DNA of 64,000 nt from Candidatus Avimonas narfae (GTDB lineage Bacteria > Bacillota > Clostridia > Oscillospirales > Acutalibacteraceae), in contig CAJFNR010000034.1 of assembly GCA_904395335.1 (NCBI GenBank), positions 1 through 64,000 of the forward strand. The letters are read 5' to 3'. The notes beneath the pieces are model-generated. The model saw only the letters and a list, made by a program, of their open reading frames with translations. It made no database searches and had not been told where the DNA came from. Positions 3,299-59,407 of the stretch are shown one piece after another (the stretch's first letter is position 1; the number at the start of each line of letters is the position of its first letter). The position numbers and the translations under genes were made by a program.

Positions 3299-3566
3299 TC
3301 TGCCCATTCTCCGCCAGGGAGTCGAACCCCCGGGTTCAGAATCCCTCCGGGCGGACCATCGATAGCCAGCGATTCATGATGAATTGTTGCCTCTTTTTGT
3401 TATGTGGCTTAGCCATGAGCGGCTATCTTCATAACCCCAACCCCAATACGACCGGAAACCGTGTACCTATGCGGCTTTCGGTCTTTTTCCTCCGCCGAAC
3501 GCATGATCTGGGGGATTAGGCGGTGTTTGTAGATGTGATTCCGTGCTGTACGGTATATTAATAGGC
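3299..3566. other. Non-coding gap, element debris
   Basis: No credible gene. A tRNA-like T-arm is visible on the minus strand around 3312-3345 (GGGGGTTCGACTCCC) but no complete tRNA can be folded around it. The rest looks like leftover mobile-element sequence. Confidence 0.4.
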
Positions 3567-3628
3567 TTGACAAGCGAAGAAAGAAAGTCTATAATCAAAT
3601 AAGAACAAATGTTCTTATTTGATTATAG
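3567..3628 (+). promoter_or_regulatory. Consensus SigA promoter overlapping a LexA-type palindrome
   Basis: TTGACA (3567-3572), 17 bp, TATAAT (3590-3595): an exact consensus promoter. A perfect inverted repeat of 18-bp arms (CTATAATCAAATAAGAAC at 3589-3606, loop AAAT, right arm 3611-3628) covers the -10 box and start point. Its centre, GAACAAATGTTC (3603-3614), fits the Gram-positive LexA box GAAC-N4-GTTC. LexA bound here would occlude the start site, so SOS induction is the natural reading. A Shine-Dalgarno (AGGAGGGGG, 3631-3639) follows. Confidence 0.75.
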
Positions 3629-48864: not shown

Positions 48865-50973
48865 TCAGTTGTGGTACAGCAGCTCGGTGTAGCTGGGGAA
48901 CGGCCAGTATTCCGCGGCGGTGAGGCTTTCCGCCTTATCCGCTTTTTCCCGCACGGCTGCCATATCCCTGAGGATGGTATCCTTATAATACAACCCCTGC
49001 TGCGTGACATCCGAAAGACGCTGGGCCTTGTGCAGATGGGTTTCCAGCTTGCCCAGACTCTTATGCAGGGCGCTGAGGCAGTCGGAAAGTTCCCGAACAG
49101 TCTGAGTTTCCCAATCGCAGGCCAGGTCGGCTGCCAGCGCTTTCTTGTCCAGCGCGGATCGGGTCAGATCACGGAGGTAGGAGGAGACGGCGGGTAAAAT
49201 CTGCTTGCGGGCCATGTCGATCATGGTCAGGGCCTCAATATTGAGCTTTTTACTGTAGGCGTCCATGAGGATCTCGTACCGGGAGTGCAGCTCGGATACC
49301 GTGAAGATTTTATGTTTGGTAAAGAGTTTAACGTTTTTCTCCGCGATAAAGGAGGGGAGGGCATCCACGGTGGTTTTCAGATTCAGCAGGCCACGGCGCT
49401 GCGCTTCCTCCACCCATTCGTCGGAGTAGTTGTTGCCGTTGAAGATGATGCGCTTATGTTCCGTGATAGTGCGGCGGATCAGCTCCTGCAAAGCGGCCGT
49501 GAAATCCGCCGCCTGCTCCAATTCGTCGGCAAACTGGGAAAGCTCCTCGGCCACAATGGTATTGAGTATGACATTGGGACCGGATATGGAGAGCTCAGAG
49601 CCCAGCATGCGGAACTCGAACTTGTTGCCGGTGAAGGCAAAGGGGGAGGTGCGGTTGCGGTCGGTGTTGTCCTTGGGGAAGCGAGGAAGGATATGGACCC
49701 CCACCTTCATGTCCTCCTGATCCTTATGGCTGTAGTCATCGCCCTTTTCGATGGAGGTAAGGATAGCGGTCAGCTCATCGCCGAGGAACATGGAAACGAT
49801 GGCGGGAGGCGCCTCGTTGGCGCCCAGCCGGTGATCGTTGCCCGCGCTGGCAACGGAGACACGCAGCAGATCCTGGTATTCGTCCACCGCCTTGATGACG
49901 GCGGTGAGGAAGAGGAGAAACTGGGCGTTCTCCTGAGGGGAATCGCCGGGTTCCAGCAGGTTGATGCCGGTATTGGTGGAGATGGACCAGTTGTTGTGCT
50001 TACCGCTGCCGTTGACCCCGTCGAAGGGCTTTTCGTGGAGCAGGCAGGTCAGGCCGTGGCGGTCCGCCACCTTTTTCATCATTTCCATCGTCAGCTGGTT
50101 GTGATCCGTGGCCAGGTTGGTATTGGTAAAGACCGGAGCCAGCTCGTGCTGGGCGGGGGCCACTTCATTGTGCTCGGTTTTGGCGAAAATCCCCAGCTTC
50201 CAGAGCTCCTCGTTCAGCTCCTTCATGAAAGCTGCCACGCGGGGCTTGATGACGCCGAAATAATGATCCTCCAGCTCCTGGCCCTTAGGCGGTTTATTGC
50301 CGAACAGGGTACGGCCGCACAGCAACAGATCCTCCCGTTGCTCGTAGAGTTTCTTGTCCACCAGGAAATATTCCTGTTCCGGCCCCACCGTGGTGGTGAC
50401 GCGGGTGGCATCGGTGTTGCCGAATAGGCGCAGGATGCGCAGGGCCTGCTTGTTGATCACTTCCATGGAGCGAAGCAGAGGCGTCTTTTTATCCAGCGCT
50501 TCCCCTCCATAGGAATAGAACACAGTGGGGATGCAGAGAGTCCCGTCCTTAATAAAGGCGTAGGAGGAGGGATCCCAGGCGGTATAGCCCCGGGCCTCAA
50601 AGGTGGCGCGCAGACCGCCGGAGGGGAAGCTGGAGGCGTCCGGTTCGCCCTTGACCAGCTCTTTTCCGCTGAATTCCATGATGACGGAGCTGTCGCCTTC
50701 CGGGGAAATGAAGCTGTCGTGCTTTTCCGCTGTAATACCGGTCATGGGCTGGAACCAGTGGGTGAAATGGGTGACGCCCTTTTCCACGGCCCAGTCCTTC
50801 ATGGCATTGGCTACCACGTTGGCGACGCTGGGATCCAGATGCTTGCCCAGCTCCATTGTCCTGCGCAGCGCTTTATAGGTTTCTTTGGGAAGCCGTTCCC
50901 GCATGACGCGGTCATTGAAGACCAGGCTGCCGAACAGCTCCGGGAGCCGGACGCTGGAATTTCTATCGTTCAT
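48865..50973 (-). CDS. glnN: Glutamine synthetase type III
   Basis: 702 residues, the GlnN (GSIII) size. [95 protein letters not shown] and [22 protein letters not shown] carry the metal and ammonia sites. Makes glutamine from glutamate and ammonia. ATG 50973 follows AGAAAGG. Downstream of asnA by 41 bp, so a probable asnA-glnN operon under the asnA leader. Confidence 0.96.
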
Positions 50974-51014: not shown

Positions 51015-52028
51015 TTACAGAAGGACTACGCCTGCCGCGTCGCAGGCGGCTTTGGTCTGCTCGTCCCAGATGGATACCTGCACCTCGCCGATGTGCGCCT
51101 TGCCCAGCAGCAGCATGCAGATGCGGGACTGGCCGATGCCGCCCCCGATGGTCAGAGGCAGTGTGCCGTCCAGTACCATCCGGTGGAAGGGGAGCGCCCG
51201 GCGTTCGTCGCAGCCCGCCTTGCTGAGCTGCGAATCCATGGCGGCGCTGTCCACCCGAATGCCCATGCTGGATACCTCGAACGCGCACCCCAGGATATCG
51301 TTCCAAAACACAATGTCTCCGTTCAGGGCCCAGTCGTCATAATCGGGCGCGCGGCCGTCGTGCTTGATGCCGGAGCGGAGCTGATCGCCGATCTGCATGA
51401 TAAACGCCGTCCGGTGCTCCCGTACATAGGCGTTTTCCCTTTCCTTGGGGGTGTACTCAGGATACAGATCCTCCAGCTCCTGGGTGGTGACAAAACTGAT
51501 TTCCCGAGAGAGAGAAACCGGCAGACCGGGGAAAAGCTCCTTCAGGCTGTCGGCGGTATCGCAGATGGCGCCGACGATTTTCTGTACGGTTTCCCGCAGA
51601 TAAGCGGCGTCCCGCCGGCCCTCCGGAAGGATTGCCTCCCAGTCCCACTGATCCACATAGATCGAATGCAGGTTATCCATTTCCTCGTCCCGGCGGATGG
51701 CGTTCATATCGGTTACTAGGCCGTATCCGGGCTGAAACCCATAACGGTACAGCGCGTACCGTTTCCATTTTGCCAGCGAGTGGACCACTTGGGCAGTGGA
51801 CCCGGTTTCCAGAATATCAAAGGAAACCGGACGCTCCACGCTGTTCAGGTCGTCGTTTAGGCCGGTGGCGGGATCCAGAAACAGGGGAGCGGATACCCGG
51901 GTCAGCTGCAGTGCGTTTTCGAGCTTTACAATGAAACACTTCTTGATGGCGTCAATGGCCTTCTGTGTTTCGTAGAGGCCCAAGCCGGCGGAGGGAACAT
52001 ATCCCTGGGGAATGACTGTCTTGCTCAT
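51015..52028 (-). CDS. asnA: Aspartate-ammonia ligase (asparagine synthetase A)
   Basis: 337 residues. [64 protein letters not shown] and the final [14 protein letters not shown] are AsnA signatures (class II aaRS-like fold). Ammonia-dependent asparagine synthesis. ATG 52028 follows AGAAAGGG. Two ammonia-fixing ligases (AsnA, GlnN) share one operon. Confidence 0.96.
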
Positions 52029-52101
52029 ACGAACGACCCTTTCTGTATTTAGGATGAGGGAAAGCGGCGGCGGAGTAACCCGCCCGCCCTTTTCCCAACA
52101 G

Positions 52102-52178
52102 AAAAAGGCGCCGCGGGGATTGTCCGCAGCGCCTTTGCTGTATGTCGTCACTATACACCGCTTCGGGCGCTTTGTCAA
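52102..52178 (-). promoter_or_regulatory. asnA-glnN promoter and ANTAR-like attenuator leader
   Basis: Minus strand TTGACA (52178-52173), 17 bp, TATAGT (52155-52150); transcript start near 52143. Immediately after it CAGC-AAAGGC-GCTG (52140-52127) forms a hairpin whose hexaloop has A at 1 and G at 4. Its 3' arm lies inside the 5' arm of the terminator GGCGCTGCGG / CCGCGGCGCC plus T5 (52133-52102). The two structures are mutually exclusive, giving antitermination logic. Confidence 0.65.
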
Positions 52179-52277
52179 TAGGATGTGCAATATTTTTTTT
52201 GAAAAAATCAATTCATTAAATATTATACGGGAAAAACCCAGGAAAATTAGCTTATCAGAAAAATATTTTGCAAGGTA

Positions 52278-52391
52278 TTGACATCTAACTTGCACAGTGG
52301 TAAGATGGGACCATAGACAAAGACGTCTGTGGAAATCGCACCTTCTCAACTGGAAGAACCGCGCGATTTCACAGGCGTTTTATTGTTTTTT
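52278..52391 (+). promoter_or_regulatory. Glutamate synthase operon promoter and ANTAR-like attenuator leader
   Basis: TTGACA (52278-52283), 17 bp, TAAGAT (52301-52306). At the expected start, CCATAGAC-AAAGAC-GTCTGTGG (52311-52332) is an 8-bp stem with hexaloop A1/G4. A weaker hairpin CTTGC-ACAGTG-GTAAG (52289-52304), also A1/G4, lies just upstream and would be transcribed only from a more distal promoter. The main hairpin's 3' arm is shared with the terminator ACGTCTGTGGAAATCGC / GCGATTTCACAGGCGT plus T-rich tail (52323-52391). Confidence 0.65.
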
Positions 52392-52434: not shown

Positions 52435-53523
52435 ATGTTAAGAGAAGGCGAATACCGGAACCCTTCTGGCTGCGCCATATCCGGTATCTTTTCCAAAGAG
52501 GGAAAACGGATCGGAGGCGATACCATCATCCGCTCGATTTCCACCATGCACGACCGGTCCAACGGACTGGGCGGAGGATTTGCCGGGTACGGGATCTATC
52601 CTCAATATAAGGATTTATATGCTTTTCATATTTTTTACGACAGCCCGGCGGCCAAGGAAACCTGCGAGAAGTTCCTGGAACGGCATTTCGATATTGTCAA
52701 TCTTTCGAAAATCCCGGTGCGCAAGATCCCACAGATTACCGACGAACCCCTCATCTGGCGGTATTTTGTCACACCGCTCCACGTGAAGCTGGCGGACAGC
52801 CAGCTGGATGAGAAGGAGTTTGTGGCCCGTTCCGTGATTCGCATCAACACCGTTATTGACGGGGCCTACGTGTTTTCCAGCGGAAAAAACATGGGCGTTT
52901 TCAAGGCGGTAGGATTCCCCGAGGACGTGGGCAATTTTTACCGGCTGGAGGAATACGAGGGGTATTGCTGGACAGCCCACGGCCGGTATCCCACCAACAC
53001 TCCCGGTTGGTGGGGCGGCGCCCATCCCTTTGCCATGCTGGACTATTCGGTGGTGCACAATGGGGAAATTTCCTCCTACGATGCCAACCGGCGCGCTATG
53101 GAGATGCACGGTTACACCTGCACCCTGCTTACCGATACCGAGGTTATTACGTATATCATCGATTACCTGCTGCGCAAAAAGGGGCTGACGCTTACCGAAA
53201 TGGCCAGTGTCATCGCCGCGCCCTTCTGGAGCACCATCGAGAAAAAGCCGCCGGAGGAGAAGGAACGGTTGACTTATCTGCGCACCGTTTTCGGCAGCCT
53301 GCTGATCACGGGTCCCTTTTCCATTCTGCTGGGCTTTGACGGCGGCATGATGGCGCTCAACGACCGGCTGAAGCTACGCTCCATGGTGGTGGGAGAAAAG
53401 GACGACATGGTGTACATCGCCAGTGAGGAATGCGCCATCCGCATTGTGGAGCCGGAGTTGGATCGTCTGTGGTCACCCGCCGGAGGCGAACCCGTTATCG
53501 TAACACTCAACGACAGGAGATGA
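52435..53523 (+). CDS. Glutamate synthase glutaminase subunit (class II amidotransferase, split GOGAT)
   Basis: 362 residues, Ntn-hydrolase amidotransferase. The expected nucleophile is Cys13 in SGCAISGIFSKEG, preceded by a 12-residue extension that would have to be removed for an N-terminal Cys. MHDRSNGLGGGFAGYGIYP, HGRYPTNTPGW and HNGEISSYDANRR fit the glutaminase active site. Equivalent to the free GATase subunit (GltB1/GlxB-like) of archaeal-type split glutamate synthases. GGGGAGG precedes ATG 52435. First gene of the operon; the synthase subunit starts 5 bp after its stop. Confidence 0.85.
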   Translation: MLREGEYRNPSGCAISGIFSKEGKRIGGDTIIRSISTMHDRSNGLGGGFAGYGIYPQYKDLYAFHIFYDSPAAKETCEKFLERHFDIVNLSKIPVRKIPQITDEPLIWRYFVTPLHVKLADSQLDEKEFVARSVIRINTVIDGAYVFSSGKNMGVFKAVGFPEDVGNFYRLEEYEGYCWTAHGRYPTNTPGWWGGAHPFAMLDYSVVHNGEISSYDANRRAMEMHGYTCTLLTDTEVITYIIDYLLRKKGLTLTEMASVIAAPFWSTIEKKPPEEKERLTYLRTVFGSLLITGPFSILLGFDGGMMALNDRLKLRSMVVGEKDDMVYIASEECAIRIVEPELDRLWSPAGGEPVIVTLNDRR

Positions 53524-53528
53524 GCGTC

Positions 53529-55034
53529 ATGGCCATCGATTTTCTTTATCCGCAGTATGAAGTGGTGCGCAACCCGGACCGCTGCATCGCTTGCCGTGTC
53601 TGCGAACGGCAGTGCGCCAACGAGGTGCACCGTTTTGACCCGGAACGGGGCGTGATGAGGGCGGATGACGCCAAATGCGTCAACTGCCACCGCTGCGTGT
53701 CCCTGTGTCCGACCCGGGCGCTGAAAATCGTCAAGTCCGACCATACCTTTAAAGAAAACGCCAACTGGCCGGGAGAGGCGATTCAGGAGATCTACCGTCA
53801 GGCGGGTTCAGGCGGCGTACTGCTGTCCTCCATGGGCAATCCTAAGCCGTTTCCCGTGTACTGGGACAAGATTCTCATCAACGCTTCCCAGGTGACCAAT
53901 CCCTCCATTGATCCGCTGCGTGAGCCCATGGAGACCAAGGTGTTCCTTGGGCGGAAGGCGGTTCCTATCGAACGGGACAGGGAAGGGAACCTTATCGACA
54001 ATCTGCCTCCCCGTCTGGAGCTGCGGGTACCAGTGATGTTCTCTGCTATGTCCTATGGATCTATCAGCTACAATGCTCACGAGAGTCTGGCGCGCGCCGC
54101 TCAGGAACTGGGAATTTTCTATAATACCGGTGAGGGCGGCCTGCATGAGGATTTTTATGCCTACGGTCCCCATACCATTGTTCAGGTGGCCTCCGGGCGA
54201 TTCGGCGTGCACAAGGATTATCTGGAGGCCGGAGCTGCTATTGAGATCAAAATGGGCCAGGGCGCCAAGCCGGGGATCGGCGGCCACCTTCCCGGCGCCA
54301 AGATTGTGGGGGACGTGTCCCGCACCCGGATGATTCCGGAGGGGTCGGACGCCATTTCCCCGGCACCCCATCACGACATCTACTCCATCGAGGACCTGCG
54401 TCAGTTGGTGTATTCCCTCAAAGAGGCCACGGAGTACAAAAAGCCCGTGATCGTGAAGATCGCAGCAGTCCACAATGTGGCCGCCATCGCCAGCGGCATT
54501 GCCCGCAGCGGGGCGGATATCATCGCCATCGACGGCTTCCGCGGCGGCACCGGCGCCGCACCCACCCGAATCCGAGACAATGTGGGTATCCCCATCGAGC
54601 TGGCCTTGGCCAGTGTGGATCAGCGCCTGCGGGAGGAGGGGATCCGGGACAATGTTTCCATCGTGGTGGGCGGTAGCATCCGCAACAGCGCCGATATCGT
54701 CAAGGCCATCGCCCTGGGGGCGGATGCGGTGTATATTGCCACCAGTGCGCTGCTGGCGCTGGGCTGCCACCTGTGTCGGAGCTGCCACGCGGGCAACTGC
54801 AATTGGGGCATCGCCACCCAGCGTCCGGAACTGGTCAAGCGTCTGAATCCCGCTATTGGTTCCCAAAGGCTGGTGAACCTGGTGACAGCCTGGGAACACG
54901 AGATCAAGGAAATGATGGGCGGCATGGGCATCAATTCCATCGAGGCACTCCGCGGCAACCGGCTGATGCTCCGCGGCGTGGGACTGAACGAGCGTGAGCT
55001 GTCCATTCTAGGGATCAAACACGCCGGCGAATAA
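53529..55034 (+). CDS. Glutamate synthase FMN/Fe-S synthase subunit (split GOGAT)
   Basis: 501 residues. N-terminal 2x[4Fe-4S] ferredoxin domain (C19, C22, C25, C29 and C50, C53, C56, C60), then the FMN-barrel of glutamate synthase: SAMSYGSISYNAHESLA, EGGLHEDF, GQGAKPGIGGHLPGAK, IDGFRGGTGAAPT, and the cluster-binding C-H-L-C-x2-C-x4-C region. Adds ammonia to 2-oxoglutarate. Corresponds to GltB2/archaeal GltS. ATG 53529 chosen by AGGAG spacing. Confidence 0.93.
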   Translation: MAIDFLYPQYEVVRNPDRCIACRVCERQCANEVHRFDPERGVMRADDAKCVNCHRCVSLCPTRALKIVKSDHTFKENANWPGEAIQEIYRQAGSGGVLLSSMGNPKPFPVYWDKILINASQVTNPSIDPLREPMETKVFLGRKAVPIERDREGNLIDNLPPRLELRVPVMFSAMSYGSISYNAHESLARAAQELGIFYNTGEGGLHEDFYAYGPHTIVQVASGRFGVHKDYLEAGAAIEIKMGQGAKPGIGGHLPGAKIVGDVSRTRMIPEGSDAISPAPHHDIYSIEDLRQLVYSLKEATEYKKPVIVKIAAVHNVAAIASGIARSGADIIAIDGFRGGTGAAPTRIRDNVGIPIELALASVDQRLREEGIRDNVSIVVGGSIRNSADIVKAIALGADAVYIATSALLALGCHLCRSCHAGNCNWGIATQRPELVKRLNPAIGSQRLVNLVTAWEHEIKEMMGGMGINSIEALRGNRLMLRGVGLNERELSILGIKHAGE

Positions 55035-55062: not shown

Positions 55063-55518
55063 GTGAAACGAATTTATGTCCGGGAAGAATGGTGCCTGGG
55101 CTGCCATTTGTGCGAATATTATTGTGCCTTTGCCAATTCGGGAAAGGATGACATGGCGGCGGCGCTGAAAAACGTGACCATCCATCCGCGGATTCAGATC
55201 GAGGAGAAAAACGGCGTCAGCTTTGCGGTATCCTGCCGCCACTGCGAGGAGCCGCTGTGCGTCAAGAGCTGTATTTCCGGTGCCCTGTCCTCTCATGACG
55301 GCCTCATCGAGGTGGATGTAGGGAAATGCGTGGGCTGCTATACCTGCATTCTGGTCTGTCCCTATGGAGCGATCATGCCGGCGGAGGGCGGAGGCGTTGT
55401 CCAGAAATGCGAGCTCTGCGTGAAAAACGCCGGAGGCATACCGGCCTGTGTAAGTCATTGCCCCAATCAGGCCATTGTGTTTGAGGAGCGGGAGCAGAAG
55501 GAGGGGACGGTAGCATGA
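55063..55518 (+). CDS. 4x[4Fe-4S] electron-transfer subunit
   Basis: 151 residues, HycB/DmsB-like. CLGCHLCEYYC, CRHCEEPLCVKSC, CVGCYTCILVCPYGA and CELC...CVSHCP provide Cys sets for up to four clusters. It probably passes electrons from the next gene product (flavoprotein) to the synthase subunit. GTG start; 4-bp overlap with the flavoprotein gene. Confidence 0.85.
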   Translation: MKRIYVREEWCLGCHLCEYYCAFANSGKDDMAAALKNVTIHPRIQIEEKNGVSFAVSCRHCEEPLCVKSCISGALSSHDGLIEVDVGKCVGCYTCILVCPYGAIMPAEGGGVVQKCELCVKNAGGIPACVSHCPNQAIVFEEREQKEGTVA

Positions 55519-56750
55519 GCCGGTATGTCATCATTGGGAATTCAGCGGCCGCTGTGGGTTGTGTGGAGGGAATCCGGCAGCAGGACAAAACGGGCGGCAT
55601 CACCCTGATTTCCACCGAACCGCATTTCACCTATTCCCGTCCGCTGATCTCCTATCTTCTGTGGGGCAAGACGGACGAGGGGCGCATGAGATACCGGCCG
55701 GCGGATTTTTACCAGAAAAACCGGTGTGAGCTTCTGGCTGGTCGGACCGCCGTCCGGATTGATACACAGGAAAAGAGCGTACAGCTGGATGACGGGCGGC
55801 GTGTGTCCTATGACAAGCTGCTGGTGGCCACCGGTTCCCGGCCGTTTGTTCCGGCGATGCCGGGATTGGAGAAGGTCCCACAGCGGTTTACTTTTCTATC
55901 CCTGGACGATGCCCGCCGGCTGGAAGCGGCGCTGACACCGGAGGCCCGCGTCCTCATCGTGGGGGCGGGGCTGATCGGCCTCAAATGTGCGGAAGGGATT
56001 TTCGATCGGGTGAGGAGCCTGGCGGTAGTGGATCTGGCCGACCGCGTCCTGCCCAGCATTCTGGATGAAACGGGTTCGCGTCTCGTCCGGCAGCATCTGG
56101 AAAAGAAGGGCATCCGGTTTTATCTCTCCGACAGCGTATCTTCCTTTGAAGGGAACACGGCGCGCCTGCAAAGCGGTGCGGCGGTGAATTTTGATCTGTT
56201 GGTGATAGCGGTGGGAGTCCGTCCCAACGCGGAGCTGGTCCAAGAGGCCGGCGGGACTGTAAACCGCGGGATCACAGTGGATGCGTATGGCCGCACCAGC
56301 CTTCCCGATGTGTACGCCGCCGGTGACTGTACGGAAACCACCGATATCGCTTCGGGAGAGAGCCGGGTGCTGGCCTTGCTTCCCAATGCTTATATGCAGG
56401 GGGAAAGCGCCGGCACTCATATGGCCGGTGGGACAGGGAAACCTTATGACAGGGCTATCGCCATGAACGCCATTGGCTTATTTGGCTACCATGTGCTGAC
56501 AGCCGGTGTTTACACCGGCGATACCTATGCCGTGGAGGAAAACGGTGCATATAAAAAGTTGTTTTATCAGGACAACTTGCTCAAGGGTTTTATCCTCATC
56601 GGACAGGTGGAGCGTGCGGGAATTTACACATCCCTGATCCGCAACCGCACGCCGCTGGATTCACTGGACTTTGAGCTGATCCGGGAAAAGCCCCAGCTGA
56701 TGGCATTCAGCCGTCGGGTGCGCGCCCGGGCGTTATCCGAACAGGGATAG
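55515..56750 (+). CDS. NAD(P)/FAD-dependent oxidoreductase (GOGAT electron input)
   Basis: 411 residues. FAD Rossmann YVIIGNSAAAVGCVEG, second nucleotide site RVLIVGAGLIGLKCAEG, and VYAAGDCTET near the FAD closing motif. Rubredoxin reductase/nitrite-reductase NirB-N-like family. Likely accepts NAD(P)H electrons for glutamate synthesis; the actual donor is inferred. ATGA overlap with the Fe-S gene shows tight coupling. Confidence 0.85.
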   Translation: MSRYVIIGNSAAAVGCVEGIRQQDKTGGITLISTEPHFTYSRPLISYLLWGKTDEGRMRYRPADFYQKNRCELLAGRTAVRIDTQEKSVQLDDGRRVSYDKLLVATGSRPFVPAMPGLEKVPQRFTFLSLDDARRLEAALTPEARVLIVGAGLIGLKCAEGIFDRVRSLAVVDLADRVLPSILDETGSRLVRQHLEKKGIRFYLSDSVSSFEGNTARLQSGAAVNFDLLVIAVGVRPNAELVQEAGGTVNRGITVDAYGRTSLPDVYAAGDCTETTDIASGESRVLALLPNAYMQGESAGTHMAGGTGKPYDRAIAMNAIGLFGYHVLTAGVYTGDTYAVEENGAYKKLFYQDNLLKGFILIGQVERAGIYTSLIRNRTPLDSLDFELIREKPQLMAFSRRVRARALSEQG

Positions 56751-56762
56751 GGAGGGATTGTC

Positions 56763-57485
56763 ATGACAATTGATGCACAGGGCCTGCATTTTCAGCCTCT
56801 CAACGAAGCGGTTCGTTCCGCCGGGAGCTCTCCGGTGGTGATTGAACAGTGCGTGGGACAGCGGTACATCGGCAGCGGCCTTTCGGAGAAAACCATTGAG
56901 ATCAACGGAACTCCGGGAAATGCACTGGGAGCCTATCTGGACGGGGCGGAGATCGTGGTGCACGGCAATGCGCAGGATGCCACCGGCGACACGATGAACG
57001 AAGGCACTATCTGTATCCACGGCTCTTCCGGTGACGCCACCGGCTACGCCATGCGCGGCGGCAGTATCTGGGTCCGCGGCAGCATCGGCTACCGCGGCGG
57101 CATCCATATGAAGGAATACCGGGAAAAGAGTCCCCTGCTAGTGGTGGGGGAGACGGCCGGCAGCTTTCTGGGCGAGTACCAGGCGGGCGGCACTATTGTG
57201 GTGCTGGGCCTGCACTGTGAAGCCGACAAGCCGGTGAGCAATTTTTGCGGCATGGGGATGTACGGTGGCCGGATCTATCTGCGTTGCCGCCGTCCGCCGT
57301 CCGGACTGCCCGACCGCCTGCTGTGTGCGGAGGCGGATGAGGAGGACCGAGCTTTCCTTCGTCCCATTCTGACGCGTTTCTGTGAGCTTTTCGGGGAATC
57401 CCTGAAGGATGTGGAGGCCCTGCCGTTTTACCGTATCACGCCGGACAGCCGGAATCCATACAAGCAGCTTTATGTATCCAATTGA
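56763..57485 (+). CDS. Glutamate synthase GXGXG-motif subunit (split GOGAT)
   Basis: 240 residues forming a right-handed beta-helix of G-x-x-G-x-x-x-G repeats (GNALGAYLDGAEIVVHGNAQDATG, GTICIHGSSGDATGYAMRGG, GGRIYLRC). This is the C-terminal domain of classical GltB made as a separate protein (GltB3/GlxC-like). Structural partner linking glutaminase and synthase. Confidence 0.9.
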   Translation: MTIDAQGLHFQPLNEAVRSAGSSPVVIEQCVGQRYIGSGLSEKTIEINGTPGNALGAYLDGAEIVVHGNAQDATGDTMNEGTICIHGSSGDATGYAMRGGSIWVRGSIGYRGGIHMKEYREKSPLLVVGETAGSFLGEYQAGGTIVVLGLHCEADKPVSNFCGMGMYGGRIYLRCRRPPSGLPDRLLCAEADEEDRAFLRPILTRFCELFGESLKDVEALPFYRITPDSRNPYKQLYVSN

Positions 57486-57499
57486 AAGGGGGAGAGGCA

Positions 57500-58804
57500 A
57501 TGCTCAGCGATACGGCGCGGGAAGTGCTGGACTTTGTCCGGGAAAACGATGTGAAATTTGTTCGTTTGGCCTTTTGTGATTTGTTCGGACGTCCAAAGAA
57601 TATTGCCGTCATGGCGGATCAGCTCCCCCGGGCCTTTGAGCAGGGGATCCCCTTTGACGCCTCGGCCGTGCCCGGTTTCGGGGGAGCAGATGGCTCCGAT
57701 CTGCTGCTGGCACCGGACTGTTCCTCCGTTGCCATTATGCCGTGGCGTCCCGCTCAGGGACGTGTGGTGCGGATGATCTGTTCCATAAACAATCCGGACG
57801 GGACACCCTTTGAGGCGGACGGCCGGTATCTGCTTCGGCTGGCGGCGGACCGTGCGGCGGAGATGGGCTATCTTTGCCGTGTGGGGACGGAATGTGAATT
57901 TACCCTTTTCAAAACCGATGCCGACGGTAATCCCACTGAGGAGCCCATGGATCGGGGAACCTATGGGGATGTGGCACCTCTGGACAAGGGGGAAAATATC
58001 CGGAGGGCCATCTGTCTTGCATTGGAGAGTATGGGCCTCTGTCCCGAGAGCTCCCATCACGAGCAGGGGGCGGGACAAAACGAGATCGACTTTCGCTTTG
58101 CGGAGGCTCTGACTGCCGCCGATCATATGACCACCTTTCAGACGGTGGTAAAAGCCATTGCCATGGGCAACGGCCTTTATGCGTCTTTTCTCCCCAAGCC
58201 TCTGGCCGGTGATAGCGGAAACGGCCTGCACATCAATCTTTCCCTGTTGCAGTGCGGAAAAAATATTTTTCAGCGGGCTCCCAGCCACTGTCCGGAAGCG
58301 GAGAGCTTTATCCAGGGGATTCTGAACCGGGTGCGGGAGATCACGGTGTTTCTCAACCCTCTGGTTAATTCCTATGCCCGCTTCGGCTCCTTTGAGGCCC
58401 CACGTTATCTGACGTGGTCCCATCAGAACCGGTCCCAGCTCATCCGCATCCCCGTCTCTTTTGGGGAGGACAACCGCATGGAACTGCGCTCTGCCGATCC
58501 GTCCTGCAATCCCTATCTAGCCTTTGCGCTTCTGCTTCATGCGGGTCTGGAGGGAATCGAGCAGAAGGTCGCGCTGGAACCGCCCTGCAACCGTTCTCTC
58601 CCGGAGGAAGAGGAGGGGCTGCCGTGCCTTCCGCGAGATCTGGGTGAGGCCATTGAAGCGGCTGAAAACAGCGATTTTCTCCGTCGGGTCCTGCCGGATT
58701 CAGTGGTACAAAATTATCTGGCGGAGAAAAGGCGGGAATGGACAGCTTACAGCGCCGCCGATCCGCGGGACTATTTTCTCAGCCGCGAATTCCGGCGTAT
58801 TTGA
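57500..58804 (+). CDS. glnA: Glutamine synthetase type I
   Basis: 434 residues. VRLAFCDLFGRPKNI, PGFGGADGSDLLLAPD, GTECEFTLF (metal Glu), EQGAGQNEIDFR, GNGLHINLSL, NSYARFGSFEAPRYL and RMELRSADPSCNPYLAFA (active-site Glu/Arg). No adenylylation Tyr motif is recognised. ATG 57500 follows AAAGGGGGAGAGG. Second GS in the window besides the type III enzyme; its operon with GOGAT and an ANTAR regulator makes a compact GS-GOGAT unit. Confidence 0.92.
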   Translation: MLSDTAREVLDFVRENDVKFVRLAFCDLFGRPKNIAVMADQLPRAFEQGIPFDASAVPGFGGADGSDLLLAPDCSSVAIMPWRPAQGRVVRMICSINNPDGTPFEADGRYLLRLAADRAAEMGYLCRVGTECEFTLFKTDADGNPTEEPMDRGTYGDVAPLDKGENIRRAICLALESMGLCPESSHHEQGAGQNEIDFRFAEALTAADHMTTFQTVVKAIAMGNGLYASFLPKPLAGDSGNGLHINLSLLQCGKNIFQRAPSHCPEAESFIQGILNRVREITVFLNPLVNSYARFGSFEAPRYLTWSHQNRSQLIRIPVSFGEDNRMELRSADPSCNPYLAFALLLHAGLEGIEQKVALEPPCNRSLPEEEEGLPCLPRDLGEAIEAAENSDFLRRVLPDSVVQNYLAEKRREWTAYSAADPRDYFLSREFRRI

Positions 58805-58840: not shown

Positions 58841-59407
58841 ATGGATAAGATATTGGTGGTTTCTTCCCTGTCCAGGGGGACGGAGGTGTTGACCTCCTAT
58901 CTGGAAGGGGACGCGTATTCCCTTCAATATGCCGCCAGCGGCGGGGAGGCGCGCAGGCGCTTGCTGGAGGAATCGTTTTCACTGGTGATCATTCTTGCCC
59001 CGCTGAAGGACGAATCGGGAATTTCTCTGGCGGAGGATGCTGCAGGGGGAACAGCGGGGATTTTGCTGGCGGTAAAAGCGGGGGAGCAGGAAGAGCTGGC
59101 CCATCGCCTGACCGGACACGGGATCTTCGTTTATTCCTTTTCCATGGGCAAAAGGATGTTTGAATATGCCGCTCAGCTCCTGCTTGCCGTCCACCGCCGG
59201 CTGGAGGCCTCCCTTCCCCAGAAGGAAAAGATGGAACGGCGAGTGGAAGACATCCGGATTGTCAACCGGGCCAAATGCCTCCTCATCCAATACCTTCATC
59301 TCAGCGAGGAGGAGGCGCACCGGCTGATTGAAAAGCAGGCCATGGACAAACGGAAAACCAAGCGGGAAGTGGCGGAAGAAATCCTGCGCCACTACGAAAT
59401 TGAATAG
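58841..59407 (+). CDS. ANTAR-domain antiterminator with pseudo-receiver
   Basis: 188 residues. Residues 1-120 look like a receiver-fold domain, but the phospho-acceptor position (end of beta 3, SLVIILAPLKDESG) has no Asp, so it is probably not phosphorylated. Residues 130-186 form a coiled coil and ANTAR bundle (VNRAKCLLIQYLHLSEEEAHRLIEKQAMDKR...VAEEIL), with the conserved A-K and A-M motifs. ANTAR proteins bind paired hexaloop hairpins and prevent termination. Candidate targets are the leaders at 52102-52178 and 52278-52391. AGGTGAG sets ATG 58841. Confidence 0.88.
   Translation: MDKILVVSSLSRGTEVLTSYLEGDAYSLQYAASGGEARRRLLEESFSLVIILAPLKDESGISLAEDAAGGTAGILLAVKAGEQEELAHRLTGHGIFVYSFSMGKRMFEYAAQLLLAVHRRLEASLPQKEKMERRVEDIRIVNRAKCLLIQYLHLSEEEAHRLIEKQAMDKRKTKREVAEEILRHYEIE

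Follow-up and report, generated by a model that had tools for sequence, protein, structure and literature searches.

Two divergent operons of nitrogen metabolism, asnA-glnN and GOGAT-glnA-ANTAR, leave the same intergenic region of the window (the whole 64,000-nucleotide stretch analysed here), and the second one encodes a protein with an ANTAR domain. This arrangement raises the question of whether this protein controls both operons through their leaders, and whether it could do so through a single RNA hairpin where the studied ANTAR targets carry two. From comparative sequence analysis, we consider it likely that transcription attenuation by NitR-type ANTAR antitermination, working through a single hexaloop, controls both operons.

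Two leaders between divergent operons

The genes of the two operons and the elements of their leaders are as follows.

51015..52028, minus strand: asnA, aspartate-ammonia ligase (Pfam AsnA, 7e-98)
48865..50973, minus strand: glnN, type III glutamine synthetase (Pfam GSIII_N, 2e-81; start inferred at MNDRNSS)
52435..53523, plus strand: GOGAT amidotransferase-domain protein (Pfam GATase_2)
53520..55034, plus strand: GOGAT synthase-domain protein (Pfam Glu_synthase, 2e-140)
55063..57485, plus strand: Fe-S protein, pyridine-nucleotide oxidoreductase and GXGXG GOGAT subunit (Pfam)
57500..58804, plus strand: glnA, glutamine synthetase (Pfam Gln-synt_C, 4e-96)
58841..59407, plus strand: NitR-like ANTAR protein with pseudo-receiver, coiled coil and ANTAR domain (Pfam ANTAR, 4e-18; EutV fold)
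52278..52306, plus strand: predicted promoter of the GOGAT-glnA-ANTAR operon (-35 TTGACA 52278-52283, 17 nt, -10 TAAGAT 52301-52306)
52311..52332, plus strand: putative antiterminator hairpin CCATAGAC(AAAGAC)GTCTGTGG (loop 52319-52324; -8.6 kcal/mol for 52312-52340)
52320..52391, plus strand: competing intrinsic terminator and T-tract (terminator about 52320-52380, T-tract to 52391; -28.7 kcal/mol, z -4.3)
52150..52178, minus strand: predicted promoter of the asnA-glnN operon (-35 TTGACA 52178-52173, 17 nt, -10 TATAGT 52155-52150)
52127..52140, minus strand: putative antiterminator hairpin CAGC(AAAGGC)GCTG (loop 52136-52131; -4.8 kcal/mol)
52099..52136, minus strand: competing intrinsic terminator and T-tract (stem 52136-52104; -24.6 kcal/mol, z -5.5)

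Both leaders are built alike: a sigma-70-type promoter is followed at once by a hexaloop hairpin and then by a strong intrinsic terminator. In both of them the 5' arm of the terminator starts within the hexaloop: loop positions 4-6, together with the hairpin's 3' arm, pair in the terminator, so that the hairpin and terminator folds are mutually exclusive. Fold energies are -24.6 (minus) and -28.7 (plus) kcal/mol for the terminators, against -4.8 (minus) and -3.9 to -8.6 (plus) kcal/mol for the hairpins; the terminator being the more stable, termination would be the expected default. The minus hairpin does not stand out by itself, since 105 of 200 shuffled sequences fold equally well, and it is comparison with relatives, not its own folding energy, that lifts it above chance.

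The initial annotation had described these hexaloops, AAAGAC (plus) and AAAGGC (minus), both with A1 and G4 and with a 3' arm inside a terminator, and their coordinates and structures are confirmed. It had also placed the leaders ahead of asnA-glnN and GOGAT-glnA, identities that Pfam bears out, and an ANTAR protein in the latter operon; 58841-59407 is indeed the sole ANTAR gene above the Pfam cut-off in the genome.

The leaders and the ANTAR gene in relatives

Loop signature and placement were followed in 25 named loci around ANTAR-protein homologues and 40 loci from other genomes of this family. A scan that ignored the loop sequence and retained any hairpin with a loop of 4-9 nt overlapping a terminator covered 1.03 Mb around ANTAR homologues and returned 134 promoter-proximal overlaps, of which 61 have 6-nt loops. 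A1 was found in 56 and G4 in 57 of these 61 promoter-linked hexaloops, versus 51 and 57 of the 172 hexaloop sites lacking a promoter, counts that are not all independent as some loci are near-identical. The AnnGnn composite lies upstream of GOGAT (26/32), glnN (26/37) and asnA (5/6), against 0/66 upstream of the ANTAR gene and 1/17 upstream of dapF; several of the glnN misses concern stems of 3 bp or a glnN that comes second in an asnA-glnN operon. As a control, the other 15 loop classes occurred 0-6 times at any gene and 0-4 times at GOGAT. In addition, A2 of the loop is present in all 70 leaders and the C-G closing pair in 69 of them, neither having served as a selection criterion. The resulting C[AANGRN]G loop and closing pair match the SELEX consensus obtained with NasR, namely a closing C:G with A1 and G4 (PMC7496416).

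Compensatory changes were found in both competing folds. Among 51 distinct leaders, both sides changed in 5 of 6 antiterminator pairs (86 cells vs a shuffled mean of 29.7) and in 9 of 11 terminator pairs (185 cells vs 43.9), although these counts lean towards the structures, detection having required 4 pairs and A1/G4 and the terminator partners coming from predicted folds. The signal vanishes in shifted registers. A terminator-anchored test of arm pairing suffered from register shifts and is kept out of the main evidence.

Genome-wide, the two window leaders are the top matches of a covariance model, with 43.6 and 41.7 bits against 30.6 for the next one, both having belonged to its training set. 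The third match, at window positions 3557-3618 (+), was rejected as an ANTAR leader: it is a LexA-box-like GAACAAATGTTC palindrome. At 3557-3625 (+), a promoter is followed by the perfect palindrome CAAATAAGAACAAATGTTCTTATTTG, which we take to resemble a LexA/SOS box (GAAC-N4-GTTC).

Among a further 199 genomes of the family, leader matches counted as strong (E <= 3e-5) occur in 48 of 74 non-training ANTAR-positive genomes vs 5 of 85 ANTAR-negative ones (p 7e-16, uncorrected for relatedness). Since a leader on the ANTAR operon itself would make such co-occurrence trivial, glnN was considered separately. It is kept in 49 of 66 ANTAR-negative genomes, and its composites are found at 4 of 29 ANTAR-negative vs 26 of 37 ANTAR-positive loci (p 5e-6), two of the four looking like chance. 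Convincing single-hairpin leaders with no detected ANTAR gene are present in three genomes (L126 in G004, L206 in G006, L210 in G072), which may reflect loss of the gene, a gap in the assembly or a different reader. Gene assignments at loci L100-L129 are used for L126 alone. Altogether, the attribution of both leaders to ANTAR-type attenuators, proposed from the window sequence, is backed by the loop and closing-pair signature, the compensatory changes sought in related genomes, the co-occurrence with ANTAR genes and conserved synteny.

The genes behind these leaders are asnA, glnN, GOGAT and glnA and, in relatives, also gdhA, asnB, carA and amtB (profile matches), nearly all belonging to ammonia or glutamine metabolism. 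The self-contained circuit of the initial annotation is borne out in part: of the two target operons, one does hold the gene for the protein, but the regulon is larger in relatives.

Several arrangements deserve mention. Two single-hairpin attenuators stand in series before the same gene at L048 (-300/-149), L098 (+13463/+13544), L181 (-4841/-4765) and L183 (-3089/-2991). Promoter-less attenuators are found between an upstream gene and glnN at L045, L057 and L096, also at L047 and L097, the upstream gene being gdhA at L057, L096 and L047. The distance from loop to T-tract is 27-53 nt in asnA/glnN leaders and 45-116 nt in GOGAT leaders, a difference that may give the protein time windows of unequal length.

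One hairpin or two

In the standing model, an ANTAR dimer is recruited on a first hairpin, P1, and passed to the second, P2, both hairpins being required. For EutV, P1 removal ablated eutP induction in vivo (PMC3369931), and NasR bound a single hairpin about 12-fold more weakly (PMC7496416), so that one hairpin might look insufficient. With a structure published in 2022, the minimal binding motif was reduced to a single hexaloop, yet both hexaloops were still held necessary for antitermination (PMC8934654).

In the leaders described here, the loop starts 10-21 nt (median 15) past the predicted -10 box, i.e. at about +8; the RNA thus begins practically with the hairpin, which leaves no room for P1 in the predicted transcript. 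No conserved second AnnGnn hairpin was found upstream among the leaders scanned, and single-hairpin leaders were annotated in 18 further families of the class (40 NitR-type orthologue loci, mostly from other families). A second hexaloop a short linker upstream, the mark of the two-hexaloop ANTAR motif, was looked for and either not found or not conserved, the plus leader holding one non-conserved candidate; the leaders, although they would work like ANTAR elements, are therefore not filed in that class. We regard it as fairly probable that a regulon based on a single 5'-end hexaloop extends across many families of Clostridia, with a pseudo-receiver that is not phosphorylatable at the usual site and with P1 dispensable there.

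The best surviving alternative is that these are ordinary dual-hairpin ANTAR elements whose P1 was missed, the true start lying further upstream or P1 being short. The plus leader gives it some substance, as CTTGC(ACAGTG)GTAAG (52289-52304, +) has A1 and G4 and precedes the main hairpin by 6 nt, and a weaker promoter-like site, TTGAAA-16-TATTAT, stands before this leader at 52199-52226. However, the candidate lies across the spacer and -10 box of its own, near-consensus promoter, and the congeneric leader L090 lacks it. Also in favour of this alternative, 17-35 nt separate the -10 box from the hairpin in a few leaders of other families; against it, near-consensus promoters keep a constant distance in dozens of leaders, and upstream AnnGnn hairpins accompany 7 of 111 composites, where each control loop class gives about 2, and none of the 53 from other families. 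No dual hairpins were found near 20 other ANTAR loci, in a scan run without the positive control of a proven dual element, a point that also speaks for a missed P1. On balance, we hold this alternative to be improbable. The single-hairpin variant suggested by the initial annotation is supported by the fixed spot of the hairpin beside a predicted promoter in dozens of species, with the P1-like 52289-52304 of the plus leader as a caveat. If transcription began upstream, this hairpin would be the first hexaloop.

Another reader, be it a riboswitch, a T-box or a different RNA-binding protein, or else an unregulated terminator, is considerably less probable. Such devices often target genes of amino-acid metabolism and the three ANTAR-negative genomes retain a convincing leader, but a hairpin of about 20 nt is too small for riboswitch and T-box classes, the ANTAR motif has the same loop and closing pair, and the leaders track the ANTAR gene. 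Moreover, an Rfam scan gave chance-level matches only (E 0.59 or worse), with no riboswitch, T-box or other Rfam leader.

Finally, inverted repeats at +1 are in the classic operator position, as is the LexA-box-like palindrome matched by our model, but a DNA operator bound by a repressor just past the -10 box, with incidental terminator overlap, is very unlikely given that, in same-locus operon pairs, the asymmetric loop is largely preserved (0.82) where the arms diverge (mean identity 0.41), that the loop is always oriented with transcription, that the 3' arm covaries with the terminator as well, and that promoter-less copies lie inside operons (L045, L057, L096).

The ANTAR protein and known systems

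In our preferred reading, antitermination through a single hexaloop, the NitR-like protein encoded at 58841-59407 probably reads both hairpins. Its 188 residues are modelled with a pLDDT of 91.9 as a receiver fold, a long helix and ANTAR helices, and the best PDB matches of the model are EutV (6wsh and 6ww6), then Rv1626, AmiR matching too. K145, E156, H160 and M168 are invariant in 47 of 47 homologues; K145, E156 and M168 correspond to EutV K149, E160 and M172, while the His stands where EutV has Tyr164, which stacks on G4, AmiR likewise having a His. The receiver fold is kept but its acidic pocket is gone: at the phospho-acceptor position, where strand 3 ends, the homologues carry N (39), L (5, including the window protein), D (2) or V (1). 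The EutV-type phospho-acceptor Asp is therefore absent from the receiver of the window protein, and no kinase was identified among the genes of the operon. The ANTAR gene usually lies after glnA, sometimes after the GOGAT GXGXG subunit without glnA (L058, L059, L091, L164, L170); as such operons exist, an adjacent glutamine synthetase cannot be the sole signal route. At L058 and L059, these GOGAT-ANTAR operons have no recognisable leader upstream of GOGAT.

We propose that the first ~20 nt of the transcript would fold into one hexaloop hairpin. Unaided, the stabler terminator would form from the loop and 3' arm, and transcription would stop. The ANTAR protein, probably as a dimer, would bind the C-G-closed AANGRN loop, hold the hairpin and block the terminator, allowing asnA-glnN and GOGAT-glnA-ANTAR to be transcribed; as the ANTAR gene lies in the second target operon, positive feedback would result. 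Each attenuator would use one hexaloop, versus the two-hairpin motif of EutV, NasR and AmiR. The usual Asp being lost, the signal would not pass via its phosphorylation, and nitrogen status might instead reach the pseudo-receiver via a partner or a metabolite. By analogy with NitR, read-through would occur under nitrogen limitation.

The kind of mechanism is already known. In what is reported of it, NitR of Clostridium saccharobutylicum induces GS/GOGAT genes under nitrogen limitation by antitermination (Stutz 2007, via PMC6316151), and in C. thermocellum an ANTAR gene is reported within the GS-GOGAT cluster Clo1313_2030-2036 (PMC4676874). As in these two cases, the ANTAR protein of the window is tied to GS/GOGAT genes: its gene is clustered with glnA and GOGAT and the leaders stand on those genes. 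In the literature searched, outside which fell most subscription papers including Stutz 2007, no report of single-hairpin ANTAR antitermination was found.

With the EutV/EutW eut attenuators of Enterococcus faecalis (PMC3369931, PMC8934654), the window system has in common the A1/G4 hexaloop, the 3' arm shared with a terminator, the protein fold and the main RNA contacts. EutV targets, however, have two hexaloops, both needed, and EutV is phosphorylated on Asp54, whereas the window has one hexaloop and no phospho-acceptor Asp. The closing C:G and loop A1 and G4 of the window leaders are also those of NasR/nasF (PMC7496416) and AmiR/amiE, and AmiR, like the window protein, combines a pseudo-receiver with a His at the EutV Tyr164 position. 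Yet NasR and AmiR targets carry two hairpins and the window leaders one; NasR has a NIT domain with which it senses nitrate, and AmiC holds AmiR, whereas no such partner is seen at the window. The predicted ANTAR regulons of Desulfotomaculum (PMC3369931) similarly form a multi-operon nitrogen regulon including glutamate synthase genes, but they came from a two-hairpin covariance model, not built for single-hairpin leaders.

Compared with these systems, the conserved single-hairpin, promoter-proximal form with a pseudo-receiver seems to represent a new variant, one that many families share. Its succession of promoter, C[AANGRN]G hairpin and terminator is a signature that can be searched for and for which two-hairpin models were not built. 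It also hints at a way in which central nitrogen assimilation (asnA, asnB, GSIII, GS, GOGAT, GDH, carA and ammonium uptake) may be controlled in many uncultured Clostridia. If true, it would be a compact switch made of one hairpin and one protein, and this naturally P1-less family would make directly testable the question of why EutV, NasR and AmiR targets have two hairpins.
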